From: Streptomyces sp. NBC_01551
GTDB taxonomy: Bacteria; Actinomycetota; Actinomycetes; Streptomycetales; Streptomycetaceae
NCBI RefSeq assembly: GCF_026339935.1
Contig: NZ_JAPEPX010000001.1
Span: forward strand, 62,001-126,000
Direction of reading: 5' to 3'
Length of the DNA stretch: 64,000 nucleotides
Part shown: positions 10,357 to 49,017 of the stretch, in pieces
Numbering within the stretch: the first letter of the stretch is position 1
Layout: the number at the start of each line of letters is the position of its first letter
Program-made: the position numbers and the translations under genes
The notes under the pieces: model-generated
The model's input: the letters and a program-made list of their open reading frames with translations, nothing else
Database searches by the model: none
What the model was told of the DNA's origin: nothing

Positions 10357-10375
10357 TTCAGTTAGCCTCACCTAA
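10357..10375. promoter_or_regulatory. Iron box (DmdR/IdeR-type operator)
   Basis: The 19-mer ttcagttagcctcacctaa matches 16 of 19 positions of the actinobacterial iron-box consensus TTAGGTTAGGCTCACCTAA as I recall it. It sits in the 185-bp divergent region between the exporter operon and the FecCD importer operon, 39 bp before the importer start. It is placed so that iron-loaded DmdR1/IdeR would repress both directions. Confidence 0.75.
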
Positions 10376-10413
10376 GTTAGCGCTTCGCGAACGAATGGTC
10401 GCCGAGGGGAGCC

Positions 10414-26098: not shown

Positions 26099-27940
26099 GT
26101 GTCCCGACTCGGGGGATCAATCATCCGGTTCCAGCTTCTGGGGCCTTTGAGCATTGCGCACGGCCTCGAAACCGTCGTTCTCAAACCGTCCAAGCCGACC
26201 AGTCTTCTCGCCGCACTTCTCCTGCATCCCGGCACCGTGGTGTCGACCACGTACCTGCTGCGCGCCGTGTGGGACGAGGAACCACCCGCCACCGCCCGCG
26301 CCGCACTGCAGACGTGCGTGCTCCGCCTGCGCCGGCTATTCGCCAAGTACGGCATTTCCGCGACCACCATAGAGGCCGTACCGGGCGGTTACCGGATGCA
26401 CAACGACACGGAAACTCTCGACCTCGTGCTCTTCCGCGCGCTCACGGCCGCGGCGGGATCCGCGACCGGTCCGGGAGAGGAGCTGTACCGGCTCCGGGAG
26501 GCCCTTTCGCTCTGGCACGGCCAGCCCTTGGCCAATGTGGCCTCGCGCATGCTCCAGCAGGACGCGGTACCAGCCCTCGAACAGGAGCGGCTCCGGGTAC
26601 TGGAAAGGGTCTGCGACCTCGAACTCGCCGCCGGGAACTGCCATCAGGTCCTGGTCGACCTGTACGAGAGCGCCCGTCGGCACCCGGTGCGGGAACGATT
26701 CACCGAGCAGCTCATCGAGGCCCTCTACCGCACCGGACGCCAAGCCGAAGCCCTCGCCGAGTACCGCACGGTGCGCGACCGGCTCCGCGACGAGCTGGGC
26801 ATCGACCCGGGCGCGGGACTGCGACGGCTGGAACTCGCCATCCTGCGCTCCGAGGACCTGGCGCCCGCCCCGCCGCCGCGACCCGCGCGACCGCTCACCA
26901 CCGGGGCCGAACTCCCCGAACCGTCGGCCGCCGTACGCGCCGGTGTCCCGAACCGGCCGGTCCGGGCGGTGCCGCCCGTCCCCGCCTTCGCGGGGCGCGA
27001 GAGCGACCGCGGGGCCATGGCCGAGCGGCTCACCTGCGCCGACGGACCGCGACTGGTCGTCGTCTCGGGGGCGCCGGGCATCGGAAAGTCCGCTCTGGCC
27101 CGCCAGACGGCCCACGAGACGCAGGGCGCCTTCCCCGGCGGGGTGTTCTCGATTCAGCTGGACCGGCCGGACGGGACCGCGCTGCCCGTCGAGGAGGCGG
27201 CGCGACTGCTGCCGGAGGCCGGCGCGGGGGCCGATCCCGGGGCCGGCGCGGGACCCGGTGCGGGAGCCGGCCGGCGGCTGATCGTCCTGGACGGCGCGGC
27301 CGGCGCCTGGCAGGTGCTCCCGCTGCTGACCGCGACCGGGGACGCGTCGGTCCTCGTGACCAGCAGGCGCGGCCTGGCCGCCGTCGTCGCCACCCACGGC
27401 GGCGCGGTGCACCGCCTCGACGTCCTGCGACCCGCCGAGGCGTACGCCCTGCTCGCCGGGCTCGTCGGCGAGCGGCGGATCGCCGCCGAGCCGGCGGCGG
27501 CCCGGGAACTGGCCTCCGTGTGCGGCCATTTCCCGCTCGCGCTGCGGATCGCGGCGGGACGGCTGCTGACCCGGCCCGCATTGTCGGTGGCGGACTGCGC
27601 GGCGTGGCTCGCCGAGGATCCCCCCGCCCGGCTGGCCCTCGCGGAGGACGCCCGGCTCTCGGTGCCGGAGGTGTTCGGGCAGGCGCTCGACGCGCTGCCT
27701 CCCGAACTGCGGGAGGCGTTCCTGCGGCTCGGCGCCCTCGCCGCGGGCGCCGACGCGTCGGCCGGGGAGAGCGAGAGCGTACTCGAACAGCTCGTGGACA
27801 CCGGGCTGTTGGAGGACGGGCCGCCCGGCCCGTACCGCCTCCACGACTTCCTTCGCATCTACGCGCGTTGGCGCGTCCGCACGCACGAGACGACCGCCGC
27901 GACCGCTGCGACAGCCGCGACAGCGACCGCACCGCACTGA
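26099..27940 (+). CDS. SARP/AfsR-type transcriptional regulator (wHTH-BTAD-NB-ARC)
   Basis: A 613-residue regulator. Residues about 5-95 form an OmpR-like winged helix (FQLLGPLSI, LLAALLLHPG, TARAALQTCVLRLRR). Residues about 100-250 are a bacterial transcriptional activation domain (BTAD). From about 300 there is an NB-ARC/AAA ATPase with Walker A SGAPGIGKSALAR and a LIVLDGAAG Walker B-like strand. It lacks the TPR region of full-length AfsR. The GTG at 26099 has AGGGGGA four bases upstream. SARPs activate nearby antibiotic genes by binding heptamer direct repeats with 11-bp spacing. It is the first gene of the RiPP cluster and probably its pathway activator. Confidence 0.88.
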   Translation: MSRLGGSIIRFQLLGPLSIAHGLETVVLKPSKPTSLLAALLLHPGTVVSTTYLLRAVWDEEPPATARAALQTCVLRLRRLFAKYGISATTIEAVPGGYRMHNDTETLDLVLFRALTAAAGSATGPGEELYRLREALSLWHGQPLANVASRMLQQDAVPALEQERLRVLERVCDLELAAGNCHQVLVDLYESARRHPVRERFTEQLIEALYRTGRQAEALAEYRTVRDRLRDELGIDPGAGLRRLELAILRSEDLAPAPPPRPARPLTTGAELPEPSAAVRAGVPNRPVRAVPPVPAFAGRESDRGAMAERLTCADGPRLVVVSGAPGIGKSALARQTAHETQGAFPGGVFSIQLDRPDGTALPVEEAARLLPEAGAGADPGAGAGPGAGAGRRLIVLDGAAGAWQVLPLLTATGDASVLVTSRRGLAAVVATHGGAVHRLDVLRPAEAYALLAGLVGERRIAAEPAAARELASVCGHFPLALRIAAGRLLTRPALSVADCAAWLAEDPPARLALAEDARLSVPEVFGQALDALPPELREAFLRLGALAAGADASAGESESVLEQLVDTGLLEDGPPGPYRLHDFLRIYARWRVRTHETTAATAATAATATAPH

Positions 27941-27952
27941 GCGCCACACCCG

Positions 27953-28006
27953 CCTTCCCCTCTCCCCTCCGCTCCCCCTCTCCCCCTCTCCCCCTCTCCT
28001 CCTCCC
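27953..28006 (+). repeat. Polypyrimidine tract before the RiPP operon
   Basis: A C/T-only stretch broken by a single G at 27971, with a tccccctc unit repeating about every 9 bp. It fills most of the 98-bp gap between the regulator and the leader-binding protein gene. It could form H-DNA or leave the transcript unstructured; its role is unknown. Confidence 0.6.
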
Positions 28007-28038
28007 GATCCCGCCCAGACCGCACCCAGGGGTGTCCC

Positions 28039-30267
28039 ATGGCTCACGCCAGCTATCAAGCCGTTGCCGCGACCCGTCCCCGGATCCGCCGGGACGTGCT
28101 GTTCACCGAGACGCCGGACGGTGTGCTGTTCCACAACGCGGACGGCGGCTTCCGCCTCACGGCCAAGTCCGCCTACCGCTTCGCGACGCTGATCGTCCCC
28201 CACCTCACCGGCGAACACTCGGTCGCCGACCTGTGCCGGGGCCTCGGCGAGGCACAGCAGGCGATGGTCGGGGAGCTGGTCCGGACCCTGTACGAACGGG
28301 ACTTCGCCCGGCCCGTCGCCGCCCCGGCCGAGGAGGCCGCCGAGCGGCCGGCGCTCGCGCCCGACGTGGCCCGCCGGTTCGCCCCGCAGATCGCGTACGC
28401 CGACCACTACGCCGACGACGCCGAGGCACGGTTCCTGCGCTTCCGCGAGACCCGGGTGGCCGTCCTCGGCGACGACGACGTGGCCCGCTGGTGCGCGTCG
28501 AGCCTGATACGCAACGGCTGCGCGAGCGTCGGCGTGCCGGCGGACATGGAGACCCCGGCGCTCGACGCGGAGGTCGCGGAGGCCGTCGGCGACGGCTGCC
28601 CGGTCGAGCTCCGCACGCTGGCGCCGGCCGGCGGTCGGGAGCCCGGCTGGCCCGAACTGGCCGACTACGACCTCGTCGTCGTCACCGGCGGCCGGACCGC
28701 GCCCGCCCGGCTGCTGCCCCTGCTGCGCGCGGGGATCCCCGCCGGCCGCACCCTGCTGCCCGCCTGGTCGTACGGCGCCGACGCCGTGATCGGCCCGCTG
28801 ATGGCGCACGGCACCGCCGGCTGCTGGGCCTGCGCCGCGCTCCGGCTCGGTGCGGCCGTCGGCCGTGACACCGCGGCCGCGGCCGAGCTGTGGAGCACCC
28901 TCGCGCTGCCCGGCAGCCCCGCGCCGGCCGGCCCGGAGCCGGGGCGGCCGCTGGCCGCGATGATCGGCAACCTGCTGGGGTACGAGGTCTTCCGCGCCAC
29001 CTCGGGGGCCCTGCCCGCCGAGACCGCGGGCCAGGTGATCGTGCAGGACATGGCCTCGCTGGACGTCACGGCGGAACCTCTCCTCGTACACCCGCGCTGT
29101 CCGTTCTGCGCCCCAGCCGAGGAGGACGCGGCCCTGGAAGCCGTGGCTCCCGTGGACCTCGCCGCGGCGGGCACCTCCCCGGCACCCGCGCCGGCGACCC
29201 TGGAGACCGCGCGCGAGGCGGACGCCCTGGTGGAGGAGCTGAACCGGCGGTCCGCGCTGGTCCGTCCGTACACCGGTGTCTTCACGCGCTACGCGGACGA
29301 GCCGCTCACCCAGATCCCCCTCAAGCTGAGCGTGGTGGAGTTCGGCACGGGCCACGCGGGCCCCCGCGCGGTCGCGGCCTTCGACGTCCACCACGTCGCC
29401 GGGGCGCGGATGCGGGCGCTGGACGCCGCCGCGGTCCTCTACGCCGAGCACGTCGTCCCCGCCCGCGGTCTCGTGGCGCGGGCCGAGGGGGCGGTCGCGG
29501 AGAGCGCGCTGACCATCGCCTCCGGTCTGTCGGGCACAGCCTCGGCCTGGCAGCGGGCCGTCTCGCTGGTCACGAAGGAGCCCGCGCTGGTTCCGGCGGG
29601 CGCGGTACGCCCGTTCGGCCCGCACAACGGCGACAGGCTCTACGAGCGCACCCGCGCCGGAGCCGGAGCCGGCCCGACGCCCGCCGACGCCGCGGCGGCC
29701 GGCCTGCTGTCGGCGCTGGCCCACGACGCGCTGCTGCGGGCGGTACGGGGGGCGGCGGCCGCGCCGGTCCTGCTCACGGACGAGACGCCCGACGCCGAAC
29801 TCGCCTTCCTCGTACGGTCGGCGGAACGCCTCGGGATCGCCGTCGAGCTGCTGGACCTCGGCGAGGGCGCCCGGTCCGGCGTGCAGGTGCTGCTGGCCCG
29901 GGCGGAGCAGCGGTGGGCCGTGGGCGCCGACCTGGACCGGCAGACGGCGACGGTCGCCGCGCTGCGGGACCTGCTGGGCGCCGTTCAGTACGAGCGGGAC
30001 GCCACCGCCTCCGGGGCGCCGGCCGACACGGGTGACCCGCTGCTGCGGGATCTCGACGCCCGCACGCTCACGGTGTCCGCCGACGCCGGTGACGCCCGGG
30101 CGAACGCGGTCGTCGCGGCGGGCTGGACGGGGGTGCTGGACCGGCTGCGCGCGGCGCGCCGCGACGCCTACGCGGTCCCCACCGGTTCCGCGGACCTGGC
30201 CTCCGCCGGACTGCACACCGCCAGAGTGCTGCTCACGTGCACCCAGGAGCCGGGCGATGACCACTGA
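28039..30267 (+). CDS. TOMM cyclodehydratase partner: RRE plus ThiF-like leader-binding protein
   Basis: A 742-residue 'ocin-ThiF'/F-protein. Residues about 12-80 look like a PqqD-type RiPP recognition element (TPDGVLFHNADGGFRLT) that binds the precursor leader. The middle is a degenerate E1/ThiF fold (VAVLGDDDVARWCASSL) with two CxxC pairs, GCWACAALR and HPRCPFCAP, likely to bind zinc. The C-terminal 350 residues resemble a non-catalytic YcaO-associated region. In thiopeptide and linear-azole systems such proteins present the precursor to YcaO and stimulate ATP-dependent cyclodehydration. The stop overlaps the first YcaO gene by 11 bp. Confidence 0.88.
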   Translation: MAHASYQAVAATRPRIRRDVLFTETPDGVLFHNADGGFRLTAKSAYRFATLIVPHLTGEHSVADLCRGLGEAQQAMVGELVRTLYERDFARPVAAPAEEAAERPALAPDVARRFAPQIAYADHYADDAEARFLRFRETRVAVLGDDDVARWCASSLIRNGCASVGVPADMETPALDAEVAEAVGDGCPVELRTLAPAGGREPGWPELADYDLVVVTGGRTAPARLLPLLRAGIPAGRTLLPAWSYGADAVIGPLMAHGTAGCWACAALRLGAAVGRDTAAAAELWSTLALPGSPAPAGPEPGRPLAAMIGNLLGYEVFRATSGALPAETAGQVIVQDMASLDVTAEPLLVHPRCPFCAPAEEDAALEAVAPVDLAAAGTSPAPAPATLETAREADALVEELNRRSALVRPYTGVFTRYADEPLTQIPLKLSVVEFGTGHAGPRAVAAFDVHHVAGARMRALDAAAVLYAEHVVPARGLVARAEGAVAESALTIASGLSGTASAWQRAVSLVTKEPALVPAGAVRPFGPHNGDRLYERTRAGAGAGPTPADAAAAGLLSALAHDALLRAVRGAAAAPVLLTDETPDAELAFLVRSAERLGIAVELLDLGEGARSGVQVLLARAEQRWAVGADLDRQTATVAALRDLLGAVQYERDATASGAPADTGDPLLRDLDARTLTVSADAGDARANAVVAAGWTGVLDRLRAARRDAYAVPTGSADLASAGLHTARVLLTCTQEPGDDH

Positions 30268-32185
30268 ACGGCTCGCGGTCGGCCCCGAGGTCGCCCGGGC
30301 GCTCGGTCCGGACGCGGCGGCCCGTTTCACCTCGCTGCTGGAGCGCGCCCTCGGGGCCCTGGGCGGTCCCCGGGTGACGCTGTCGGCGCTGGGGACCGCG
30401 GACGCCTTCGCCCTGCCCGCGCCCGAGCCCGGCGAGAGCCGCGCCGCCGTGCCCGTGCACCTGTACGGCCACCAGGCGGTCGTCGGGCCGCGGGGCGGCT
30501 GCGCCCGCTGTCTGGAACGCCGCTGGCAGGCCGTGCGGTCCGTCGCGCTCCGGGACGCCCTGGAACTGGGCGGTGGCACGCGGGCCGCCGGCGAGTGGCC
30601 GCACGCGCACGCCTTCGCGGCTCAGGCGCTGGCCGCGCTGATCGCGGCGGCGGCCGAGCCCGGCGCCCCCGCGCCCGCCGGGGTCTTCCCCGAGGTCCGG
30701 CTCCTGGATCTGCGGACGGGCACCGTACGCCGGTATCCGCTGGTCCCCGACCCCGAGTGCCCGGTGTGCGGCGCCCCGGGGACGGACACCGCCCAAGGGG
30801 CCGTGCTGGAGCTGCCGCCCGCGCCGAAGTACCGGCCGGGTGTCTTCCGTACCCGCCCCATCGAGTCGTACGGGATCGACGTGGCGGCCTTCGCCAACCC
30901 GCTGTGCGGGGCGCTGGGCCCCTCGCTCGTCCAGGACGTCTCCTCCACCTCCACCTCCGCGACCATCGGCTGCTTCTCGATGCGCTCGGGCGCGTACCTG
31001 CGCGAGACGTTCTGGGGCGGCCACACCGACTCCTTCGCCCGCAGCGCGCGGGTGGGGGTGCTGGAGGGGCTGGAGCGCTACGCCGGGATGCGGGCGCGGT
31101 CGCGGACCACGAGCGTCACGGGCTCGCTCAAGCGGTTCGGCGCCGATGCCGTCGACCCCCGGGAAGTCGGCCTGTACAGCGAGGCCTTCCACCGGGACAA
31201 CCCGCGCGTGCGCCCCTTCGACCCGGACCGGGAGATCGCCTGGGTGTGGGGCTGGTCGCTGCGCGACCGGGTACCGCGGCTGGTGCCGGAGATCCTGACG
31301 TACTATCACGCGCCCGGGCTGGAGAACCGGTTCGTGCAGGAGAGCTCCAACGGCTGCGCCTCCGGCGGCAGTCCGGCCGAGGCCGTGTACTTCGGGCTGA
31401 TGGAGGTCGTCGAGCGGGACGCGTTCCTCCTCACCTGGTACGGGCGGCAGCCGCTGCCCGAGATCGACCCGTCGAGCAGTTCCCGGCCGTCGACGCGCGC
31501 GATGGTCGACCGGCTGGCGATGTACGGCTACCGGGCCCGGTTCTTCGACACCCGGATCACCTTCCCGATCCCCGTCGTGACGGCGGTCGCCGAGCGCTTC
31601 GACGGCGGCCCCGGCCGGATGTGCTTCGGGGCGGGGGCCGGTCTCGACCCGGAGTCGGCCCTGGACTCGGCGCTCTGCGAGATCGCCACGGACGCCGTCA
31701 ACCTGCCGGGACGCACCGAACGCGACGAGGCCCGGCTGCGCGCCATGGCAGCCGACTTCGGCCTGGTCACCGCGCTGCACGACCATCCGCTCGTGTACGG
31801 GGTCCCGGAGATGGGCCGCCACGCGGACTTCCTGCTGCGGGCCGGCGGCGGGCCCGCGCGGGCCGTGGCCGAGCTGGCGTGGCCGGACGCCCGGGGCGCG
31901 GCCGCGGCCGACGACGTACGCACCGACCTGGAGCGGTGCGTGTCGGCGGTCACGGCCGAGGGATTCGACGTCGTGGTCGTCGACCAGACGATGCCCGAGC
32001 AGCGCGCCCTCGGCCTGCACACCGTGAGCGTGCTCGTCCCCGGGCTGCTCCCCATCGACTTCGGGTGGTCCCGGCAGCGGGCGCTCGGCATGCCGCGGAT
32101 GCGGACCGGCCTGTTCGACGCCGGGCTGCGCGAGCGCGCGCTGGAGTCCGCCGACCTGAACCCGGCCCCCCACCCCTTCCCCTGA
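30257..32185 (+). CDS. YcaO-family azoline cyclodehydratase 1
   Basis: A 642-residue protein. Residues 1-200 are a remnant E1-like domain with two CxxC pairs (GCARC, PECPVC). Residues about 200-640 form the YcaO domain with the ATP/Mg motif ESSNGCASGG and EVVERDAF, then the conserved VVVVDQT. It ends in the proline-rich tail HPFP required for azoline formation in characterised YcaOs. It should convert Cys, and possibly Ser/Thr, of the precursor core to thiazolines/oxazolines using ATP. The start overlaps the partner protein by 11 bp. A second, complete YcaO lies at the far end of the operon. Confidence 0.92.
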   Translation: MTTERLAVGPEVARALGPDAAARFTSLLERALGALGGPRVTLSALGTADAFALPAPEPGESRAAVPVHLYGHQAVVGPRGGCARCLERRWQAVRSVALRDALELGGGTRAAGEWPHAHAFAAQALAALIAAAAEPGAPAPAGVFPEVRLLDLRTGTVRRYPLVPDPECPVCGAPGTDTAQGAVLELPPAPKYRPGVFRTRPIESYGIDVAAFANPLCGALGPSLVQDVSSTSTSATIGCFSMRSGAYLRETFWGGHTDSFARSARVGVLEGLERYAGMRARSRTTSVTGSLKRFGADAVDPREVGLYSEAFHRDNPRVRPFDPDREIAWVWGWSLRDRVPRLVPEILTYYHAPGLENRFVQESSNGCASGGSPAEAVYFGLMEVVERDAFLLTWYGRQPLPEIDPSSSSRPSTRAMVDRLAMYGYRARFFDTRITFPIPVVTAVAERFDGGPGRMCFGAGAGLDPESALDSALCEIATDAVNLPGRTERDEARLRAMAADFGLVTALHDHPLVYGVPEMGRHADFLLRAGGGPARAVAELAWPDARGAAAADDVRTDLERCVSAVTAEGFDVVVVDQTMPEQRALGLHTVSVLVPGLLPIDFGWSRQRALGMPRMRTGLFDAGLRERALESADLNPAPHPFP

Positions 32186-32229
32186 CCCGGCCGCCGCGAC
32201 CGGCGTCCGACCCGAACGTAGGAGGACCC

Positions 32230-33788
32230 ATGGGCTACGCCCATGTCTACGCCCACGAGATCATGCACCGCGGCCGGGTGCCGATGGAGCCCGCCGACTT
32301 CGTACCCGACTGGTCCGACCGGCCGCGCAAGGCGAAGTTCTACCCGGACGCCGAGACGCTCCCGTTGCCGGAGCCCCGGCTGCCGTCCCCGTCCGACGGC
32401 GCAGCCCGGGGTTTCACCCTGCCGCTGCTGTCCGGGATGCTCCGGGACTCCTACGGGCTGACCGGCCGGCGTCTCGCGGTCCAGGCGAACACCGACCTGG
32501 CGGCGCTGCCGCACTACACGCACGCGAACTGGTCGCGGGGCACCGCGTCGGGCGGCGGGCTCTACCCGGTGGGCATCCACTGGGCGGCGGGCCCGGGCGG
32601 GCCGTTGACGCCGGGGCTCTACCACTACGCGCCGCACCAGCACGGGCTGCGCCGGCTGCTGACGGGTGATGTCACCGGGGAGGTCCGGGCGGCCCTCGGC
32701 TCCGGGGCGGGCGCGGCCGCCGCCGCGACGCAGTACCTCGTCCTCGGCGTGAAGTACTGGCAGAACGCCTTCAAGTACAACAGCTTCTCCTTCCACGCCG
32801 TGAGCATGGACGTGGGCGCCCTGGTGCAGACGTGGCGGCTGTGGGCGGCGCAGTACGGGCTGCGGATCGACCCGGTGCTGTGGTTCGACGAGGACCGCCT
32901 GGCCCGGCTGCTGGGCGTGGCCCCCCAGGAGGAGGGCGTCTTCGCGGTCGTTCCGCTGACCTGGGAGGGAGCGCGGCCGGCCGGGGAGACCGCCCGGGCG
33001 ACCGGGGCCGCGGTGCGACACCGGGACGTCGAACGCTCCCGCCGCGTCCTGGAGTTCGAGACGATGCTGCGCATCCACGAGGCCACGGCGGGGCGGGCCG
33101 CCGACCGCCCGGCGCCGGGCGCGCTGGACGCGGCCGCCGCGTTCGCGCCGCGCGGCGCCGATCCGCAGCCGCTGCCGGCGCCCCCGCGCCGCCGGCCGCC
33201 ACCGGGCGGGCGCTGCGCGAACGCCGCAGCAGCTTCGGCCGGTTCGACGCCTCCCGGCCGGTCGCGGCCGAGCAGCTCGCCGCCGCGCTGGCCGACTGCG
33301 CGGCCACCGCGTACGGCACGGAGGCCGAGCGTCCCGGCGGACCGTCGCTCACCTCGCTGTACGCGTTCGTCAACCACGTCGAGGGCGTCGCGCCCGGTGC
33401 GTACGCCTACGATCCGGCCGCGCACGCCCTGCGCCTGGTGGTGCCCGAGCCGCCCGGGCCGTTCCTCCAGCGCAACTACTTCCTGTCCAACTACAACCTG
33501 GAGCAAGCGGGCGCGGTGGTCGTCCCGACGGTGCGCACCACGGCCGTGCTGGACGCGGTGGGCGATCGCGGCTACCGGCTGGTGGGCGCCACCATCGGCG
33601 CGATCGCGCAGACCTTCTACACCACGGCCGCGGCCTTCGGCCTGGGCGCCGGCGTCGCACTCGGCTTCGACAACATCTCGTACATCGAGGAGCTGGGGCT
33701 GAGCGGCACCGACGAGGCGCCGCTGCTGATCATGCTGCTGGGCCACGAGCGGCCGAGGCCGGCCGACTTCCGCCACGAGACGGCCTGA
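32230..33788 (+). CDS. SagB-type azoline dehydrogenase, interrupted by a one-base frameshift
   Basis: A two-domain nitroreductase-fold FMN oxidase of about 519 residues that would oxidise azolines to azoles. The first part (ATG 32230, strong taggagga ribosome site) reads to about 33180 with SagB features (RGTASGGGLYPVGIHW, NAFKYNSFSFHAVSMD). Homology then continues in a different frame from about 33186 (LRERRSSFGRF, IGAIAQTFYTTAAAFGLG, LGFDNISYIEELG) to the stop at 33788. The shift falls at a run of five C (33181-33185); one extra C restores the full protein. Without correction the first frame runs on to 33702 with an unrelated tail. It could be a sequencing error, a recent mutation or a slippage site. 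The rest of the operon looks intact. Confidence 0.85.
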
Positions 33789-33801
33789 GGGGAACGGGAC
33801 G

Positions 33802-36567: not shown

Positions 36568-37673
36568 CCCCGTCCACCGGCGCCCGCGCCGAGACCCGCG
36601 GCGCATGGCAGGCCCTGCACGTCTTCTACGCCGCCAATCCGCAGCCCCTGCTGACGCGGTGCGTGCGGCCGCTGATCGCCGAACTCACCGCCGACGGCCT
36701 GCTCGCCGGGCACTTCTTCATCAACTACTGGCTGGAGGGCCCGCACGTGCGGCTTCGGCTGCGCCCGGCCACGCCGGAAGCCGGGCCGGAGGTACGGCGT
36801 CGCGCCGAGGAGGCCGTCGCCGCGTTCCTGGCCACCCGCCCGGCCCTCTACGAGGTGGACTCCGGATTCCTCAACGAGTTCTACAACACGCTGTTCGACA
36901 TCGAGTTCCCGGAGGGCGACCGGGCCGCTTTCATGGGCCCCGACGGCCGGATGAACCTGAGGCCGAACAATTCGCATTCCTGGGAACCCTACGAGCCCGA
37001 ATTCGGAAAGTACGGCGGCCCGGCGGGCGTCGAACTCGCCGAATGGCATTTCGCCCGCTCCAGCGACCTGGTCATCGACGCCCTGCACCGCATGAACCTG
37101 CACCTGCGGACCGTCCTGCTGGGCACCTCCGCCCAGCTGATGATGGTGATGGCGGGGGTCTTCCTGCCGGAGCGCGAGGAACTCACCGGATATCTCGACC
37201 GCTACTACGAGTTCTGGCACCAGGCCTTCCCCGGCACCGGGTTCATCGGGTCCGAGGAGTACGACCGCAACTACGAGCAGACGGCGCCCGGACTCGGCCG
37301 CCGGTTCGCGGCCGTGCGCGAGGCGCTCGCCTGCGGGGAGACCGGCCGGCTCCCGGCCTTCCTGGCCGGCTGGGCGGAGCACTGCCGGGAGCTGCGCGAG
37401 CGCGCCGAGGCGCTGGCCGTCGCCGGGGACCTGGTGTTCCGCTCCTGGGACGGCACGCGTGACGAGCGGGTGACGGATCCGGCCGTGGCCCTGCCGCTGC
37501 TGCTCTCCCCGTACATGCACATGACCAACAACCGGCTGCACGTCACTATCCGCGACGAGGCGTACCTGGCGCACCTGCTGGGCCGCGTCCTGCGCGAGAG
37601 CGAGAGCGCGGACCGGAGCGACGGCGCGGGCGCGGGCGCGGGCCGGACCGAGGGCGCGGCGGTCGCCCCGTGA
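36555..37673 (+). CDS. LanB elimination-domain / thiopeptide-type SpaB_C protein
   Basis: A 372-residue SpaB_C (thiopep_ocin) family protein. It has the N-terminal LHVFYAANPQPLLTRCVRPLI, the HVRLRLR strand, and a C-terminal LLSPYMHMTNNRLHV region that in this family precedes the end of the domain. Relatives either eliminate glutamate from glutamylated Ser/Thr or, in thiopeptides, form the pyridine macrocycle by a [4+2] reaction. With only one such protein in the cluster, the elimination role is the more necessary one. The start overlaps the dehydratase gene by 13 bp. The Gly/Ala-rich C-tail (after about residue 350) is low complexity. Confidence 0.88.
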   Translation: MSELTPSTGARAETRGAWQALHVFYAANPQPLLTRCVRPLIAELTADGLLAGHFFINYWLEGPHVRLRLRPATPEAGPEVRRRAEEAVAAFLATRPALYEVDSGFLNEFYNTLFDIEFPEGDRAAFMGPDGRMNLRPNNSHSWEPYEPEFGKYGGPAGVELAEWHFARSSDLVIDALHRMNLHLRTVLLGTSAQLMMVMAGVFLPEREELTGYLDRYYEFWHQAFPGTGFIGSEEYDRNYEQTAPGLGRRFAAVREALACGETGRLPAFLAGWAEHCRELRERAEALAVAGDLVFRSWDGTRDERVTDPAVALPLLLSPYMHMTNNRLHVTIRDEAYLAHLLGRVLRESESADRSDGAGAGAGRTEGAAVAP

Positions 37674-38794
37674 CCGGGCACACCCCCGCGCCGGGCCCGG
37701 CGGGGCTGCTCGGGCACCGGCCGACACTGCGGCCGGAGGTGCTGCTGTCCGCGCCGCTGCTCAACGGGGCGGCCACCGTCCACCTCGTCAAGGACCCGGT
37801 GTCCGGCGCCTCGTTCGAGATCGGGCCGAAGGAGTTCTTCCTAGTCTCCCGGCTCGACGGCTCCCGCAGTCTCGCCGAGATCGGCGCCGAGTACGCGCAG
37901 GCGTTCGGGCGGCGGCTCGGCGAGGGGAACTGGCAGCAGTTGCTGTCCCTGCTCGGCGCCCGCCGGCTGCTCGCGGGCGGCCCGCCGCCGCCCGCACCGG
38001 CGCCGCCCGGCAAGCCGCTGACCGGCACGCTGCTCAAGGGCACGTTGCGCCTGGTCGCGGACGCCGACGCCACCACGGCCCGGCTGCACCGCGCGCTGCG
38101 GCCGCTGCTGCACCCCGCGGTGCTCCTCGTACTGCTGCTCGGCTGCCTGGCGATGGAGGCCGCGCTCGCCCTGTCCTTCGGTGAACTCGCCGACGCCTTC
38201 GGGTGGTTGCTGCGCCACCCGGCGCCGCTGCTGGCGGTGGCCACCCTGACGTGGCTGAGCACCGCGCTGCACGAGTTCGCGCACGGCGTCGCCGCCCGCC
38301 ACGTCGGCGGCACCGTCGGCGAGATCGGGCTGCGGTGGCGGCTGCCCGTCGCCATCATGTACTGCACCGTCGACAACTACCGTTTCCTGGAACGCCGTCG
38401 GCACCAGGCGGCGGTGGCCTGCGCGGGCGCCTTCGCCAACCTGCTGTTCCTGCTGCCGTTCTTCGGCTGGTGGGCGGCGCTGCCCGAGGGTGACCCCACC
38501 CGCCGGGTGCTCGGCGCGCTCCTTCTGATCGGCAGTGCGCAGGCGCTGGTCAACCTGATCCCGCTGCCTCCGCTGGACGGCTACACGATGCTCGGCCACG
38601 CCCTGCGCGTCACCCGTCTGGCGCCGGCGAGTTCGGGGTATCTCCGTCTGCGGACGCGCGACCGGGCGGCCGCCGCCGCGTATCCGCCACGGGCCCGCCG
38701 GCTCTACCTCGGATACGGCATCGGCTCCGCCCTGCTCGTCCTGTTGCTGGCGGCCGGCCTCACGGGAGCCGTCTGGTACTCCGTCACCACCTGA
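37670..38794 (+). CDS. M50-type membrane metalloprotease with PqqD/RRE-like N-terminal domain
   Basis: A 374-residue protein, GTG start overlapping the previous stop by GTGA. Residues about 20-100 look like a PqqD-type winged helix (GASFEIGPKEFFLVSRLDG, SLAEIGAEYAQAF). From about residue 145 there are several membrane helices with the zinc-protease motif HEFAHG and a second ligand segment PLPPLDGY. This matches RiPP-associated 'peptide zinc metalloprotease' proteins. It may remove the leader peptide at the membrane or process it for export. No other cluster-internal leader peptidase is evident. Confidence 0.85.
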   Translation: MTGHTPAPGPAGLLGHRPTLRPEVLLSAPLLNGAATVHLVKDPVSGASFEIGPKEFFLVSRLDGSRSLAEIGAEYAQAFGRRLGEGNWQQLLSLLGARRLLAGGPPPPAPAPPGKPLTGTLLKGTLRLVADADATTARLHRALRPLLHPAVLLVLLLGCLAMEAALALSFGELADAFGWLLRHPAPLLAVATLTWLSTALHEFAHGVAARHVGGTVGEIGLRWRLPVAIMYCTVDNYRFLERRRHQAAVACAGAFANLLFLLPFFGWWAALPEGDPTRRVLGALLLIGSAQALVNLIPLPPLDGYTMLGHALRVTRLAPASSGYLRLRTRDRAAAAAYPPRARRLYLGYGIGSALLVLLLAAGLTGAVWYSVTT

Positions 38795-38870
38795 CCCCTC
38801 ACGAACCGCATTCCCCCAAGGACCGGGGTCACGCCCGGGCCGTACGCACACACAGAGGAACGCACGCCCC

Positions 38871-39887
38871 ATGACAACTGACGCCACCCAGCCGCCCGAC
38901 TCCCCGGCCATCGCCGTCCAGGACGTCCACAAACGCTACAGTGACCGCCGGGCGGTGGACGGGGTCTCCCTCGACGTGCGCCGCGGCGAGTTCTTCGGGC
39001 TGCTCGGCCCCAACGGGGCGGGAAAGACCACCCTCATCGAGATCATGGAGGGGCTGCGGCAGGCGGACGCCGGCACGGTCAGCGTCCTCGGCCACAGCCC
39101 GTGGCCCCGTGACACCGCGCTGCTGCCCCGGATGGGCGTGCAGACGCAGGCCTCGGCGTTCTTCGTACGGCTCAGCGCCCGCGAGCACCTCGCCACCGTG
39201 GCGGGCCTGTACCGCTGCGACCCGGCGGCCGCGGACCGCACGCTGGAGACCGTCGGGCTCACCGAGCAGCGCGACGTCCTGGTGGAGAACCTCTCCGGCG
39301 GCCAGCGCCAGCGCCTGGCCATCGCCTCCGCCCTCGTCCACGGCCCGGAGCTGATCTTCCTGGACGAGCCGACGGCCGCCCTGGACCCGCAGGCCCGCCG
39401 CGATCTGTGGGAGGTGCTGCGCGCCCTGAAGAGCGAGGGCCGCACGATCGTCTACACGACCCACCACCTCGACGAGGCCGAGGCGCTGTGCGACCGCGTC
39501 GCGATACTCGTCGACGGCCGGATCGCCGCTCTCGACTCGCCCCACCGGCTGGTGACGGCGGCGGGCGCGCCCTCCCGGCTGCTGCTGCCGGCGGGCCGGC
39601 TCGGCATCGAGGAGGCCGCCACGCTGCCCGGCGTGGACCGGGCCACTCTGCAGGGCGGCTCGCTGGTGCTGGAGACCGCGGCGCCCGGCAAGGTGCTGCA
39701 GGCCGTGGACGCCCTCACCGGGCTGGACGGGGTGATGACCCGCACGGCGACGCTGGAGGACGTCTACCTCGAACTCACCGGCGCCGCCCACCACGGCCGC
39801 CCCGCCGACCCCGGGGCCGGCGCCCACCCGCACGACACGCGGAACACGCACGACACGCAGAACACGCGGACGGAGCACCAGGCATGA
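38871..39887 (+). CDS. ABC transporter ATP-binding protein (DrrA-like), RiPP export/immunity
   Basis: A 338-residue ATPase with Walker A GPNGAGKTT, Q-loop MGVQTQASAF, signature LSGGQRQRLAIASAL, Walker B LIFLDEPTAALD and H-loop TTHHLDEAE. It also has a C-terminal extension typical of daunorubicin-resistance-type ATPases. The tail is a His/Asp/Thr-rich low-complexity stretch (DTRNTHDTQNTRT). It is coupled to the permease by an ATGA overlap. It probably energises export of the mature peptide and thereby self-protection. Confidence 0.92.
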   Translation: MTTDATQPPDSPAIAVQDVHKRYSDRRAVDGVSLDVRRGEFFGLLGPNGAGKTTLIEIMEGLRQADAGTVSVLGHSPWPRDTALLPRMGVQTQASAFFVRLSAREHLATVAGLYRCDPAAADRTLETVGLTEQRDVLVENLSGGQRQRLAIASALVHGPELIFLDEPTAALDPQARRDLWEVLRALKSEGRTIVYTTHHLDEAEALCDRVAILVDGRIAALDSPHRLVTAAGAPSRLLLPAGRLGIEEAATLPGVDRATLQGGSLVLETAAPGKVLQAVDALTGLDGVMTRTATLEDVYLELTGAAHHGRPADPGAGAHPHDTRNTHDTQNTRTEHQA

Positions 39888-40639
39888 GCGCATACACGGC
39901 CCTGACCGCGGCCGGATACCGGGCGCAGGTCCGGGACAAGACCACCCTCTTCTTCACGTTCGCCTTCCCGCTGCTCTTCCTCGTCGTCTTCGGCCTGATC
40001 TTCAGCGGGCAGGACGTCGAGGAGACCGGCCGCCCCTACATCTCGTACATCGCGCCCGGCGTGATGTCGTGGGGCGTCGCCAACGCGGCCGTCTTCGGCA
40101 TCGCGTTCACGCTGATGCAGTGGCGGCGCGACGACCTGCTGCGGCTGATCCGGCTCACGCCGACCCCCGTGACGACCGTCCTCGCCTCGCGGTACGTGCT
40201 GGCCCTGGTCGTGGGCGTGGTGCAGGCGGCCGTGTTCGTCGCGGTGGCGATGGTGCCGGGCTTCGGGCTGGTCCTGGACGGGCGCTGGCCGCTGGCGCTG
40301 CCCGCCCTGGTGCTCGGCATCACCGCGTTCCTCGCCATCGGGGTGATCGTCGGCACGTACGCGAACACCCCGGAGGCCGTCGCCGCGATCGCCAACTGCC
40401 TGATGGTGCCGATGGCGTTCCTTTCCGGCTCGTTCCTGCCGCTGGACATGATGCCGTCGTGGCTCCAGCAGGTCTCGCGCGTGCTGCCGCTGCGCTACCT
40501 CAACGACGCCGCGACCGGCGCGCTCACGGGAACCGGGTCGCTCGGCGCCGTCTGGACCGGGTGCGCGGCGCTGCTCGGCTTCGCCGTCCTCTTCGGCGCG
40601 ATCGGGCTGAAGACCTTCCGCTGGAGCAACCGGACATGA
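39884..40639 (+). CDS. ABC-2 type transporter permease, RiPP export
   Basis: A 251-residue ABC-2 permease with six predicted membrane helices, beginning FFTFAFPLLFLVVFGLIF and ending with the conserved LSGSFLPLDMMPSWLQ and LPLRYLNDA region. It is overlapped on both sides by ATGA junctions, with the ATPase upstream and the second YcaO downstream. The transporter is therefore embedded in the biosynthetic operon. Confidence 0.92.
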   Translation: MSAYTALTAAGYRAQVRDKTTLFFTFAFPLLFLVVFGLIFSGQDVEETGRPYISYIAPGVMSWGVANAAVFGIAFTLMQWRRDDLLRLIRLTPTPVTTVLASRYVLALVVGVVQAAVFVAVAMVPGFGLVLDGRWPLALPALVLGITAFLAIGVIVGTYANTPEAVAAIANCLMVPMAFLSGSFLPLDMMPSWLQQVSRVLPLRYLNDAATGALTGTGSLGAVWTGCAALLGFAVLFGAIGLKTFRWSNRT

Positions 40640-42594
40640 CGCCGCCGTCGCTCGTCGCCCCCGCGGGCGCCGTCCCTGCGCTCGCCCCCGACGGGGCTCC
40701 TCTGGAGGCCGCCCGCCGGGACCTCGCCCGGGCGCTGGAGCCGCTCGGCGCCGTCGTGGTGACCCTGGGCGTCCACGACGCCCTGGGGCCGCGCGCCGCC
40801 GACCCCTTCGCGGCGGTCCGGCCGGGCGCGACCGTGCACCTGAGCGCGCGGGAGATCCTCGTCGGCCCGTGGGGCGGCGACGGCACCGCCCCGGCGTGCG
40901 GCCAGTGCCTGGCCATGCGCCGCCAGCGGCTGCGCAGCCGCAGCGAGCGGGACGCCCTGGAGACCGGCAGCGCGGTGGGCACTGCGGCCGGCCCGGAGTG
41001 GCCCCGGCTGTCCCCGTACGTCCACGACGCGGTGCACGCGCTGCACGAGGCCGTCCTCGGCGGTCAGGCCGCCGCTCCCGACGGGTCGGCGGCCGACCGG
41101 GCACTGCCCCAGGTGTCGCGGCTGGACCTGGAGACGCTGCGGATCCGCACGTACCCGCTGCTGGCCGACCCGCTGTGCCCGGACTGCGGCCCCCGGGGCA
41201 CCGACGCGCCCCGGCCGTTCACGCCCGAGTCCCGGCCCAAGCCCGACCCGGGCGCGCAGCGGCTGCGGGCCGCGTCCTCGTACCCGATGCCGTACGCGGC
41301 GCTGGCCAATCCGGTGACGGGGGTGCTCGGCGGCGGCACCTGGCTCAACGTCACCTCGCCGACCACCGCACCGGTCGCCGGGAGCGTCTTCATGCGCGGG
41401 TACGCGGGCCTGACGGACGTCACCTGGAGCGGACAGGCCAACAGCTTCGCCGCGAGCCGCGACCTCGCCTACCTGGAGGGGCTGGAGCGCTACGCCGGAA
41501 CCCACCGCCGCACCGGGAACTCGCTGCTCACCGCCTCGTACGCGGAACTGGGCGAGCGGGCCCTCGACCCGGCCGAGTGCGGCTTCTACGCCCCCGGGAC
41601 CTACCGCGACGACCCGCTCGTGTCCCCCTTCGACCCGCAGCGGCCGATCCCGTGGGTGTACGGGCACTCGCTGCGCGACGACCGGCCCGTCCTGGTCCCG
41701 GCCCGGCTGGTGCACTACAGCGCGGGCCTCGCCGCCGACAACTTCGTCTTCGAGTGCTCCAACGGCTGCGCGATCGGCAGCTGCCTGGAGGAGGCGCTGC
41801 TCGGGGCGCTGCTCGAACTCGTGGAGCGGGACGCCTTCCTGATCGGCTGGTACGGCGGGCTTCCGCTGACCGAGATCGACCTGTCGACGGTGCCGGGCAC
41901 GGCGGTGCGCACGATGGCCGACCGGGCGGCGCTCCAGGGGTACGACGTGCACGCCTTCGACAACCGCGTCGATCTCGCGGTACCGGTGGTGACGGGGCTG
42001 GCGGTGCGGCGCGACGGCGGTCCGGGGCTGTTCTCCTTCGGCGCCGGCGCGGCCCTCGATCCGGCGACGGCGGTGGAGGCCGCGCTGTCGGAAGTCCTCA
42101 CGTACATTCCGCACCTGCCCCGCCAGGTCGAGGAGCGGCGCGGCGAACTGGAGGCGATGGCACAGGACTTCGGCCGGGTGCTGCACCTGAAGGACCATGC
42201 CCAGCTGTACGGGCTGCCGGCGATGGCCGAGTACGTGCGGCCCTACCGGGAGCCGGTGGCGGTGCGCCCGATGGACGAGGTCTACCGCTCCTGGACGGAG
42301 CACGGGCGCCCGCGCACCGGTGACCTGCGCGACGATCTGCTGTGCTGCGTGGCCGAGTTGACGCGGGCGGGGCACGACGTCGTCGTCGTCGACCAGACGA
42401 CGCCCGAGCAGCGCCGGATCGGGCTGCGCACGGTGTGCGCGGTGGTGCCGGGGCTGCTGCCGATCGACTTCGGCTGGTCCCGGCAGCGGGCACCGTACCT
42501 GCCGCGGCTGCGCACCGCGCCCCGGCGGGCGGGGCTGCGGGCGGCCGACCTCACCGAGGCCGAAGTCCGCATGGTCCCGCACCCGTTCCCGTAA
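40636..42594 (+). CDS. YcaO-family azoline cyclodehydratase 2
   Basis: A 652-residue protein of the same architecture as the first YcaO. Residues 1-210 are an E1-like remnant with CxxC pairs (ACGQC, LCPDC). The catalytic YcaO domain carries ECSNGCAIGS, ELVERDAF and VVVVDQT, and the protein ends in the same HPFP tail. All catalytic motifs are kept, so it is not an obviously dead paralogue. The two may split work between residues (Cys versus Ser/Thr, or different positions), or form a heteromer. The start overlaps the permease stop by ATGA. It is the last gene of the plus-strand operon, ending at a shared hairpin opposite the precursor. Confidence 0.92.
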   Translation: MTPPSLVAPAGAVPALAPDGAPLEAARRDLARALEPLGAVVVTLGVHDALGPRAADPFAAVRPGATVHLSAREILVGPWGGDGTAPACGQCLAMRRQRLRSRSERDALETGSAVGTAAGPEWPRLSPYVHDAVHALHEAVLGGQAAAPDGSAADRALPQVSRLDLETLRIRTYPLLADPLCPDCGPRGTDAPRPFTPESRPKPDPGAQRLRAASSYPMPYAALANPVTGVLGGGTWLNVTSPTTAPVAGSVFMRGYAGLTDVTWSGQANSFAASRDLAYLEGLERYAGTHRRTGNSLLTASYAELGERALDPAECGFYAPGTYRDDPLVSPFDPQRPIPWVYGHSLRDDRPVLVPARLVHYSAGLAADNFVFECSNGCAIGSCLEEALLGALLELVERDAFLIGWYGGLPLTEIDLSTVPGTAVRTMADRAALQGYDVHAFDNRVDLAVPVVTGLAVRRDGGPGLFSFGAGAALDPATAVEAALSEVLTYIPHLPRQVEERRGELEAMAQDFGRVLHLKDHAQLYGLPAMAEYVRPYREPVAVRPMDEVYRSWTEHGRPRTGDLRDDLLCCVAELTRAGHDVVVVDQTTPEQRRIGLRTVCAVVPGLLPIDFGWSRQRAPYLPRLRTAPRRAGLRAADLTEAEVRMVPHPFP

Positions 42595-42619
42595 CCGCTC
42601 ACCGATCCCCTGACGGGCG

Positions 42620-42657
42620 GATGCCCCGGTCCTCGCGTCGGCGAGGGCCGGGGCATC
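42620..42657. terminator. Bidirectional terminator between RiPP operon and precursor gene
   Basis: Inverted repeat with 17-bp arms (42620-42636 and 42641-42657), one T/G mismatch that would pair as U-G, and a 4-nt loop gtcg. It sits in the 85-bp convergent gap between the second YcaO gene and the precursor gene, so it can end both transcripts. Confidence 0.8.
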
Positions 42658-42679
42658 GGCGTCCGCGCGGCCTGACGGG

Positions 42680-42853
42680 TCAGGCGGAGCAGGAGGTGGT
42701 GCTGGTGGTCGAGGAGCAGGTCGAGGTGGAGCTGCAGCTCGTGGAACCGGCGAGCACGACCTCGCTGGCGTCCGAGTAGTCGGAGATCTCGAAGGTCTCG
42801 GACTCCAGCTCCAGGATCTCGTCCGCGAGCGAGGCGAGAGGCGACTTCTCCAT
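42680..42853 (-). CDS. Thiazolylpeptide-type RiPP precursor peptide
   Basis: A 57-residue peptide. Residues 1-36 form an acidic leader (LADEILELESETFEISDYSD, then ASEVVLAG) like those of thiopeptide precursors. Residues 37-57 are the predicted core: 10 Ser, 7 Thr, 3 Cys (core positions 4, 10 and 19) and a final Ala, so every residue but the last can be cyclised or dehydrated. The ATG at 42853 has an ideal aaggag site seven bases upstream. The gene lies opposite to and convergent with the modification operon. The exact leader cut (after LAG) is inferred from family habit, not demonstrated. Confidence 0.9.
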   Translation of the reverse strand: MEKSPLASLADEILELESETFEISDYSDASEVVLAGSTSCSSTSTCSSTTSTTSCSA

Positions 42854-42940: not shown

Positions 42941-42976
42941 GGCGCTGACACTCCTCTGACACAAGGTGTCAGCGCC
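42941..42976. promoter_or_regulatory. Operator-like repeat array upstream of the RiPP precursor
   Basis: Two heptamers CTGACAC at 42945-42951 and 42956-42962, exactly 11 bp apart with a 4-bp spacer, followed by the inverted heptamer GTGTCAG at 42966-42972. The outer part forms an 11-bp perfect inverted repeat (42941-42951 with 42966-42976). The 11-bp direct-repeat period is the pattern of SARP binding sites, and the cluster encodes a SARP. It lies about 90 bp before the precursor start and about 45 bp before the divergent M20 peptidase gene, so it may control either. Confidence 0.6.
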
Positions 42977-43017: not shown

Positions 43018-44289
43018 ATGACCGGCCCCGCACCCGTCCCCGCATCCGCGCCGCTCGCCCGGCTGGACGCGCACCTGCGCGCCCTGACGACGCTCTACCT
43101 GGAGCTGCACCGGGATCCCGAGCTGTCGGGCGCGGAGCGGCGTACGGCGGACCGCTTCGCCGGCCGGCTGGAGGCGGCGGGGTTCGCGACCACGCGCGGC
43201 ATCGGCGGCCACGGCGTGGCCGGGGTGCTGCGCAACGGCGACGGGCCCACGGTCCTGCTGCGGGCCGAACTCGACGCCCTGCCGGTGCGGGAGGCGAGCG
43301 GCCTTCCGTACGCGGCCGACGGGGAGGCGGCGCACGCCTGCGGGCACGATCTGCATCTGGCCGCGGCGGCGGGCGCCGCCACGCTGCTGGCCGAGACGCC
43401 GGGGGCCTGGCGCGGCACCCTCGTGGTGGCCGGGCAGCCGGCCGAGGAGACGCTGGAGGGGGCGCGGGCGATGCTGGCCGACGGCCTCTACCGGCGGTGC
43501 GGCCGCCCGGACGACGTACTGGCCCAGCACGCCGCCCCGCTGCCGGCCGGGATGGTCGCGCACGGGTACGGGCCGATGACGGCCGGGAGCGTCACCTTCC
43601 GGGTGGTGGTGCACGGCCGCGGCGGCCACGCGGGCGCCCCGCACCTCGCCGTGGACCCCGTCGTCGCGGCGGCCCACGTGGTGACCCGGCTGCAGACGGT
43701 GGTGGCGCGGGAGGCCGCCCCTGCGGAGCAGGTCGCGGTGACCGTCGGCTCGTTCCGGGCCGGCGACCGGGCCAACGTCATCCCGGACCGCGCCGAACTG
43801 GCCCTCACCGTCCGGGCGGTGAGCGAGGCCTCGCTGGCCCGGGCCGCCGACGCGGTGGAACGGATCGTGCGCGCCGAGTGCACCGCCGCGGCCTGCCCCC
43901 GGGACCCGGAGATCGTCCGGGTGTCCGCCTCCCCCGTCACCCACCCCGATCCAGGGGTCACGGCGGCCGTACGGGAGGCACACGCGGCCGAGTTCGGGGC
44001 GGAGCGGGTGGCGATGTGGCCGCCCTCGCTGGCGACGGAGGACTTCGCGCTGTTCGGCGACGCGGGCGTGGACGTGCACGGCGAGCGGGGCATCCGGCTC
44101 GGCTACTGGATGCTGGGCACGGTCGGCCCGGCCGCCTGGTCCCGCGCCCCCGGGACGACGGCGGCCGAGAAGCTGGCGGCCCTGCCGGCCAACCACGCCC
44201 CCGACTTCGCCCCGGACGTCCGCAGCGCCCTGCCGGCCGGCGTCCGGGCCCTGACGGTGGCCGCGCTGGCCCGCCTCGGCACCCCGTAG
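43018..44289 (+). CDS. M20-family metallopeptidase / amidohydrolase
   Basis: A 423-residue M20D-type enzyme with metal motifs HACGHDLH, a GQPAEETLEGA catalytic Glu region, a dimerisation domain (HGRGGHAGAPHLAVDP) and a late ligand segment TEDFALFGDAG. Family members hydrolyse N-acyl amino acids or small peptides. It is divergent from the RiPP precursor and shares the operator-bearing intergenic region. No clear ribosome site precedes the ATG at 43018, so translation may be leaderless or weak. A role in leader removal or trimming is possible but unsupported. Confidence 0.87.
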   Translation: MTGPAPVPASAPLARLDAHLRALTTLYLELHRDPELSGAERRTADRFAGRLEAAGFATTRGIGGHGVAGVLRNGDGPTVLLRAELDALPVREASGLPYAADGEAAHACGHDLHLAAAAGAATLLAETPGAWRGTLVVAGQPAEETLEGARAMLADGLYRRCGRPDDVLAQHAAPLPAGMVAHGYGPMTAGSVTFRVVVHGRGGHAGAPHLAVDPVVAAAHVVTRLQTVVAREAAPAEQVAVTVGSFRAGDRANVIPDRAELALTVRAVSEASLARAADAVERIVRAECTAAACPRDPEIVRVSASPVTHPDPGVTAAVREAHAAEFGAERVAMWPPSLATEDFALFGDAGVDVHGERGIRLGYWMLGTVGPAAWSRAPGTTAAEKLAALPANHAPDFAPDVRSALPAGVRALTVAALARLGTP

Positions 44290-45950: not shown

Positions 45951-46122
45951 ATCCCCGAACCCATCGCGGGGAGATCGCGGGGAGATTGTCCTATTGGATC
46001 AATCCTCTCGACTGCTTACTATGCGCCATAGTCGATCACTCCGAAGTGCAGGTGGTCTACGGCCCCGGGATCACCCACGGGCTTCGGCTGAGGCGCCTTG
46101 CACCATGTCGAGAGGGGGGCCG

Positions 46123-47217: not shown

Positions 47218-47331
47218 AGCGGCCGGCCCGCACGCGGCGGCCCGGGGCCTCGCGCGCGGAGACGACCGGTTCCCGGTGACGGCGTTCGGGACCGGGCACG
47301 CGATCGCTCCACGCGACGTGAGGCCGCCCCG

Positions 47332-48684: not shown

Positions 48685-49017
48685 TCTGGGTTCCTCTCCG
48701 ATGGGGCGTACGTGACCGGCTAACTGGAACACACCGGCGCAACCGCGCACTCGCCAGGGGCGCTTCCGGCCGGCCTGTTCCGCGGCCGCTGATCGCGGCG
48801 CCGACCGGGCGCCCCAAGGGATCTCGCAAGCCGGGGAGTTGGAACCCGGCCCACTCTGCTGACGCCCCGGCACACCCGGTTATGCTGCGTGTCGCTGCCG
48901 TTACGCCGCTCTGCCTACGCGAGCACACCTGCGGATCCGGCCGAACCCAGGTCCAGGCCGGCAGCGACTTGACACATGTCCGGCTCCCTTTTCCACGCCG
49001 CTGCTTTCGGAGGCCTC
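48685..49017. other. Divergent promoter region between two P450 genes
   Basis: A 333-bp region between the minus-strand P450 and the plus-strand P450. It should contain both promoters. I see no strong repeat or small gene; a few short open frames have no ribosome site. Confidence 0.4.

Follow-up and report, generated by a model that had tools for sequence, protein, structure and literature searches.

A widespread Streptomyces peptide cluster with a nearly invariant Ser/Thr/Cys core, probably the source of a linear azole and dehydroamino-acid peptide

In goadsporin, a peptide of Streptomyces sp. TP-A0584, ordinary residues stand between the modified ones. Its chain carries six azoles and two dehydroalanines (Dha) and is N-acetylated (PMC5303826), and the pathway combines a split LanB dehydratase with one fused cyclodehydratase (PMC4603692). 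Spongiicolazolicins, which come from Streptomyces sp. CWH03 (S. pacificus) (PMC8838263), likewise contain azoles and dehydroamino acids (PMC10676384, PMC11583998). The type 1 and type 2 coryneazolisin loci of Corynebacterium encode two D proteins, one of them discrete, as well as lanthipeptide-like dehydratases and no [4+2] protein, and their product is not characterised in that paper (PMC4603692). Here we compare with these systems a ribosomally synthesized and post-translationally modified peptide (RiPP) cluster from Streptomyces sp. NBC_01551, located in a stretch of 64,000 nucleotides (hereafter the window) that covers positions 62001-126000 of contig NZ_JAPEPX010000001.1 in a 7.05-Mb draft genome of 28 contigs.

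Judged from its genes, this cluster probably makes a linear, non-macrocyclic peptide of azoles, Dha and dehydrobutyrine (Dhb), of the goadsporin or spongiicolazolicin kind, from one nearly invariant precursor. The predicted 21-residue core, STSCSSTSTCSSTTSTTSCSA, contains exactly 10 Ser, 7 Thr and 3 Cys, with Ala last. Goadsporin and the present cluster share a split LanB and a fused cyclodehydratase, of which there are two here; the coryneazolisin loci share the two D proteins, the lanthipeptide-like dehydratases and the lack of a [4+2] protein, but in our cluster both D proteins are fused to a C domain and the precursor is a different one. A sequence-only reading of this DNA had proposed the precursor, its core composition and a set of enzymes, and all of them were located by open reading frames and profile matches where that reading had placed them. 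The features are as follows, in window positions.

26099..27940, + strand: SARP/AfsR-type regulator (Trans_reg_C, BTAD, NB-ARC); Pfam matches above cut-off, NCBIfam SARP models below their cut-offs
28039..30267, + strand: F protein, leader-binding, ocin-ThiF-like/RRE-type, with degenerate YcaO-like C-terminus (TIGR03693, TIGR03882)
30257..32185, + strand: CD1, fused C-D cyclodehydratase (YcaO; TIGR03604 303.8 bits, cut-off 219.25; TIGR03882; PF02624)
32230..33788, + strand: SagB didomain azoline dehydrogenase (TIGR03605), with a one-base gap in the linker (~33181-33207)
33802..36567, + strand: LanB N part of the split dehydratase, predicted to carry out glutamylation (PF04738, 136.5 bits)
36555..37673, + strand: LanB C part, glutamate-elimination subunit (PF14028, 145.7 bits; YGG and HMTNNRL motifs)
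37670..38794, + strand: M50 intramembrane metalloprotease (HEFAH), candidate leader protease (PF02163 30.9 bits, cut-off 27.2)
38871..39887, + strand: ABC exporter ATPase, DrrA-like (PF00005; present in 78 of 80 related loci)
39884..40639, + strand: ABC-2 exporter permease, DrrB-like (PF01061; present in 79 of 80 related loci)
40636..42594, + strand: CD2, second fused C-D cyclodehydratase (YcaO; TIGR03604 334.6 bits)
42680..42853, - strand: precursor peptide of 57 residues, stop codon included in the coordinates (TIGR03892, NF033400)
42746..42853, - strand: leader of 36 residues, ending VVLAG, the exact cleavage site being predicted
42683..42745, - strand: predicted core, 21 residues, 16 of them at positions invariant in 79 copies
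42945..42961, - strand: direct repeat TGTCAG-N5-TGTCAG with an 11-bp period, candidate SARP operator, the sole match to its pattern in the window
43018..44289, + strand: M20-family amidohydrolase/peptidase (TIGR01891 238 bits, cut-off 153.75; PF01546; PF07687)

The RiPP operon, from the SARP gene through F, CD1, SagB, both LanB parts, M50 and the two ABC genes to CD2, occupies 26099-42594 on the + strand. The precursor lies on the opposite strand, adjoining the end of CD2, and the M20 gene diverges from it. This amidohydrolase gene, found in 77 of the 80 related loci described below (the exceptions are L054, which ends there, and L070 and L075, both Micromonospora), had been omitted from the sequence-only gene list, whose members are otherwise all present. 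The ‘RRE/ThiF-like’ protein of that list is indeed of leader-binding type (TIGR03693 73.1 bits, below the cut-off of 561.9; TIGR03882 66.3 bits, above the cut-off of 36.9), with the correction that it ends in a degenerate YcaO-like domain, in which neither the PHPFP terminus nor either of the two E..ER motifs typical of the YcaO fold is kept. SagB is likewise present, with the correction that it is split across two frames by a one-base gap.

Enzyme families and motifs support the proposal of an azole and dehydroamino-acid peptide. CD1 and CD2 both exceed the cut-off of the SagD-type cyclodehydratase model, are fused to a leader-binding C domain, keep both E..ER motifs and end in PHPFP, which is of the PxPxP type. 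PxPxP C-termini mark azoline-forming YcaOs, and CD1 is probably an azoline-forming cyclodehydratase. A single F protein and a single SagB accompany the two C-D proteins, which suggests that the work is split, perhaps between Cys and Ser/Thr. Cleavage of the leader just before residue 1 would keep this residue from becoming an azole, because the ring would use the scissile carbonyl. The calculated [M+H]+ is 1976.737 for the unmodified core, 1916.658 with three thiazoles, 1628.489 after water loss at residues 2-20 and three oxidations, and 1596.239 with azoles at all 19 of these residues. For the LanB N part, an NCBIfam search gave no match, and the lantibiotic dehydratase-domain protein 6ec7 (E 1.1e-41) is the only relative among PDB entries at E<=0.1. 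The M50 protease scores 97.7 bits with NF041824, below the cut-off of 300.

The class of the product depends on the LanB C part, LanB-C, which scores 97.9 bits with the pyridine-synthase model NF045556 against a cut-off of 325. A pyridine synthase above this cut-off occurs in 7 of 295 Streptomyces genomes, and in all seven a second PF14028-type protein, which we label elimination-type by its place and motif, stands beside the synthase. LanB-C is closer to this neighbor (56-107 bits) than to the synthase (30-52 bits) in 7/7 loci, the narrowest case being 56.0 versus 51.8 bits. The motif H[ML]xxNR is found in 20/20 LanB-C proteins of the family and 7/7 elimination-type neighbors, and in 0/7 synthases. 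In the lantibiotic dehydratase MibB (5ehk), LHMTCNRL and YGG occupy places matching those in LanB-C, in weak alignments. Our cluster holds one PF14028 gene and the host genome has one other PF14028 match, in a 1094-residue frame; no NF045556 match above cut-off is present in this genome. None of the seven synthase-positive genomes (of 295) is among 65 genomes that carry the precursor, and the 46 precursor-positive genomes within the synthase search gave sub-threshold matches only. The gene content is thus that of a linear azole/Dha/Dhb pathway, namely YcaO, SagB (frame-interrupted here) and a split LanB without a pyridine synthase. Since the sole PF14028 protein of the cluster looks elimination-type and the genome has no pyridine synthase above cut-off, the cluster is likely not that of a thiopeptide proper, and its likely class is that of the linear azole/dehydroamino-acid peptides.

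The precursor itself belongs to a family that is already catalogued in public annotation. It is the only open reading frame of 30-140 residues, nested starts included, on either strand of the 64-kb window with 60% or more Ser, Thr or Cys in the final 18 residues, and its composition is therefore not a product of chance. Two thiazolylpeptide-type models recognize it above their curated cut-offs (TIGR03892, 49.5 bits, cut-off 25; NF033400, 41 bits, cut-off 30). With phmmer, 160 homologues at E<=1 were obtained among 163 candidates, many of them named thiazolylpeptide-type bacteriocin. Among the 120 listed of these 160 homologues, 112 have exclusively Ser, Thr or Cys in the 12 residues preceding the last, 109 have a terminal Ala, 85 contain STCSSTTSTTSC and 20 have the identical 21-mer. 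The sequence-only reading had not recognized the core as that of a characterized compound. In support, three core fragments had no match in the text of open-licence PMC papers, and no precursor sequence was seen in further literature searches of such papers, figures and supplements being outside the scope of both; on the other hand, the annotation just described exists and the cluster is probably a homologue of the conprimycin cluster (see below). The high density of such residues is not unique to this core, as the known thiopeptides nosiheptide, micrococcin and berninamycin also have cores that are nearly all Ser, Thr or Cys. Separately, a cousin cluster with one cyclodehydratase match (L179) encodes a precursor (2738-2905) ending in SSSSCSCSSCCSCSTSSCCSCSSSTS, 26 residues of Ser, Cys and Thr only.

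A scan of species genomes with CD2 yielded 129 relatives, and the best 80 of these were used as related loci. CD1 matches were left out of the counts because CD2 itself answers a CD1 query. The precursor was detected by tblastn in 76/80 loci, so that the non-conservation which the sequence-only reading had named as fatal to its proposal is not what we find; in the other four (L030, L032, L037 and L054) a motif search found no precursor. Core counts refer to the window and loci L007-L086, where a motif search that included EAETFE-type leaders retrieved 79 copies in 77 sources, the window among them (a narrower motif gave 62 sources). Across these 79 copies, 16 of the 21 core positions are invariant, positions 1, 2, 4 and 20 show only exchanges among Ser, Thr and Cys, and position 12 is Ala once; 32 copies match the window core exactly, and the type strain S. 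virginiae NRRL ISP-5094 (L007) has this identical core. The preceding residues are VVLAG in 61/79 and VMLGS in 16/79. At the DNA level the core does vary, with 69 distinct sequences and a mean difference of 12.0 of 63 nucleotides. Both TCN and AGY codons are used at nine of the ten core Ser positions, and a switch between them made one base at a time must pass through another residue. The Nei-Gojobori ratio of nonsynonymous to synonymous differences (pN/pS) of the core, 0.66, is inflated by these switches, and the claim of invariance therefore rests on the amino acids and not on the ratio. Tandem precursor copies were seen in L033 and L059 (~11960-12820), with cores that differ at position 4 in the former and at positions 4 and 12 in the latter.

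The precursor is present in 65 of 392 sampled Streptomyces genomes, that of the window included (about one in six). In a sample across the phylum it occurs in 4/396 genomes, all four Streptomyces. Named loci outside this genus are from Kitasatospora, Actinacidiphila, Streptantibioticus, Micromonospora and Sphaerimonospora, the last being a locus whose sequence stops where the precursor was sought and not found; Catenulispora, Actinokineospora and others also appear in the names of precursor homologues. By CD2 identity, S. virginiae (92%) is the nearest named relative, very near records possibly being left out. We also fetched 20 genome regions, three of which are from the same genomes as L007, L012 and L018. 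Sixteen are fully collinear with the window from SARP through M20, and the SARP gene has a tblastn match in 19 of the 20. In three others (L140, L141 and L142) the precursor adjoins the SARP gene, at the opposite end of the cluster from CD2, and M20 was not found within the 20 kb fetched. The last one is a divergent version of the cluster, the remainder of which (L175) has two adjacent precursors (6814-7198) with different cores.

The spongiicolazolicin producer CWH03 carries the present cluster (L066), with a core identical to that of the window. On a different contig it has a second locus, L181, with a YcaO, LanB N and C parts, an M50 protease and one PF14028 gene, which is a precedent for the single PF14028 gene plus M50 of our cluster. 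The L181 precursor (17639-17800) ends in AGNCAGSASTAGSFSCPGGTIGSAGSASST, and the 29 residues counted from the first Gly equal the reported length of spongiicolazolicin A; from this precursor we infer that L181 is the spongiicolazolicin locus. While L181 resembles our cluster in its YcaO, LanB and M50 genes, it has a single YcaO, its 29-residue core stretch has Gly/Ala spacers and its enzymes are 25-31% identical to those of the window, so the two loci share neither the precursor nor orthologous enzymes. Because CWH03 carries both clusters, the product of the present family would differ from spongiicolazolicin, which we rejected as a candidate.

Another described compound, conprimycin, rather likely does come from this cluster family. 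S. globisporus TFH56 is reported to have one thiopeptide cluster among 27, tied to the conprimycin of strain S4-7, and homologues of the conprimycin cluster are stated in C-1027, S. griseus, K. albolonga and S. fulvissimus (PMC6553541). Within the genome of S. griseus NCTC13033, YcaO and LanB-N matches co-occur on a single contig, the one that carries the present cluster. In S. sindenensis, LanB-N matches are confined to this cluster; in S. microflavus and S. parvus there are additional LanB-N frames. We infer the identity of the two clusters from the sole thiopeptide-type cluster of TFH56, its S. griseus homologue and the presence of our cluster in NCTC13033. They differ in that the conprimycin cluster is called a thiopeptide cluster and described as confined to relatives of S. 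globisporus, whereas the present family is widespread and without a pyridine synthase. Two points weigh against the link. In PMC6553541 the genes are said to be restricted to S. globisporus and the species nearest to it; the comparison there covered few strains, and the reach of the present family includes homologues with ~60% identical enzymes. In addition, the distances between the locus and siderophore genes in four genomes differ from the published TFH56 map, a comparison that decides nothing. Conprimycin is described in other papers as an antifungal with a cell-wall mode of action, and protection is lost in mutants deficient in it. A thiopeptide cluster with conserved prepeptides is reported to be common to four sponge Streptomyces, and its transfer has been suggested (PMC7093587).

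Several observations speak against a linear product and for a true thiopeptide, in which a [4+2] macrocycle would form between two Dha, from Ser1 and a later Ser, with LanB-C, or an enzyme from outside the cluster, in the role of pyridine synthase. The YcaO cyclodehydratases, split LanB and Ser/Thr/Cys-rich core are as expected of a thiopeptide cluster, both precursor models above cut-off, TIGR03892 and NF033400, are thiazolylpeptide-type, and conprimycin is called a thiopeptide in print. The solved structures nearest to LanB-C by sequence and by fold are the pyridine synthases TbtD and PbtD, in a fold search that does not discriminate; no standalone elimination protein is among the structure matches. 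A LanB-C tree, which has long branches and was rooted on the synthases by choice, places the family outside both reference groups as a third group, apart from the synthases (100/100) and not nested in the elimination-type proteins (one-clade test, p 0.079). We nonetheless regard the thiopeptide alternative as improbable, since it needs a pyridine synthase besides an elimination protein, and the cluster has a single PF14028 gene of elimination-type motif and scores, far below the NF045556 cut-off, in a genome where no protein exceeds that cut-off and the only other PF14028 match is the 1094-residue frame. A lanthipeptide-like product, with the three Cys attacking Dha/Dhb made by the split LanB to form thioether rings, would account for the LanB pair and the Cys residues, but profile scans of the cluster genes turned up no LanC-type cyclase, the locus encodes YcaO and SagB, and Cys4 is replaced by Ser or Thr in 26/79 copies, an exchange that heterocyclization tolerates and a thioether does not. 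This second alternative is accordingly very improbable.

The interrupted SagB weighs against a mature product in this particular strain. Its frames run from 32230 to ~33190 and from ~33190 to 33788, the window lacking one base of a C run in the inter-domain linker (33181-33207). Separate TIGR03605 searches gave 87.3 bits for the first half and, below the cut-off of 78.4, 59.2 bits for the second. Of 87 relative loci in which both halves occur, a number that includes three genomes twice, 86 have SagB as one open reading frame, the exception being L022. The gap is either a draft-assembly error or a real lesion and, with SagB interrupted, the strain may yield azolines only, or no product. That the cluster is decaying here, with a true mutation and a dead pathway, is an unlikely though credible alternative, compatible with a linear azole/dehydroamino-acid peptide as product of the family: the frame is open nearly everywhere else, but the gap sits in a C run in a GC-rich linker of a 28-contig draft, the remaining cluster genes are open frames with family matches, and the core is unchanged.

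For the linear azole/dehydroamino-acid peptide, a pathway can be proposed in which gene content, motifs, conservation and the repeat are computed, and the protein families are the basis for every reaction, for the cleavage site and for how CD1 and CD2 divide the work. The SARP would activate the divergent precursor/M20 promoter through the 11-bp direct repeat. The F protein would then bind the acidic leader and hand the core to CD1 and CD2, which would share cyclodehydration of Ser, Thr and Cys, and SagB would oxidize azolines to azoles. LanB-N would glutamylate remaining Ser and Thr using Glu-tRNA, LanB-C would eliminate glutamate to give Dha and Dhb, M50 would cleave near LAG|S, and the ABC pair would export the peptide. 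The M20 enzyme may act on the product, by trimming or inactivating it.

SARP operators are direct repeats with an 11-bp period, and the repeat upstream of the precursor is a candidate for one. The pattern TGNCAG-N5-TGNCAG has one match in the window (0.11 expected). Across the 76 precursor-bearing loci (1.54 Mb) there are 55 matches. All but one lie no more than 420 nt upstream of the leader motif, and these 54 are spread over 53 loci; the exact pattern is absent from 23/76. A spacer of 5 is specific, with TG[ACT]CAG halves found at this distance in 49 of 77 regions of 200 bp and in at most 4 for any other spacer from 0 to 14, and 200 rounds of mononucleotide shuffling gave no repeat-spacer match. 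The loci are related and the matches therefore not independent, yet the repeat still stands out from diverged surroundings.

Elsewhere in the window, a separate terpene locus (45994-50451) comprises a selina-4(15),7(11)-diene synthase (629.8 bits, cut-off 450) and two P450-type genes. Part of a nonribosomal peptide synthetase, with two condensation and two AMP-binding stretches, runs off the left end (1-6294), and FecCD-type and ABC transporter genes are at 8531-11487. An additional YcaO gene lies far from the cluster in the same genome, at contig positions 3619334-3620314.

Such a pathway would be a hard test of how one dehydratase and two cyclodehydratases select their targets from 20 residues of similar chemistry. 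If the cluster is that of conprimycin, this antifungal, described as a thiopeptide, may, to judge from the gene content, have been assigned to the wrong class. We raise, as a doubtful proposal, the combined reading that conprimycin is a linear azole/dehydroamino-acid peptide and that the near-invariant scaffold, processed at all its side chains, is a fixed-structure signal or broad-target agent and not a diversifying antibiotic. On this reading, the Ser, Thr and Cys of a core without landmark side chains would be divided up by two cyclodehydratases that share one F protein and one dehydrogenase. The invariant core also offers a cheap single target for structure elucidation. That the core stays unchanged despite DNA drift, in roughly one of every six Streptomyces species sampled, speaks for a fixed structure that serves a common role.

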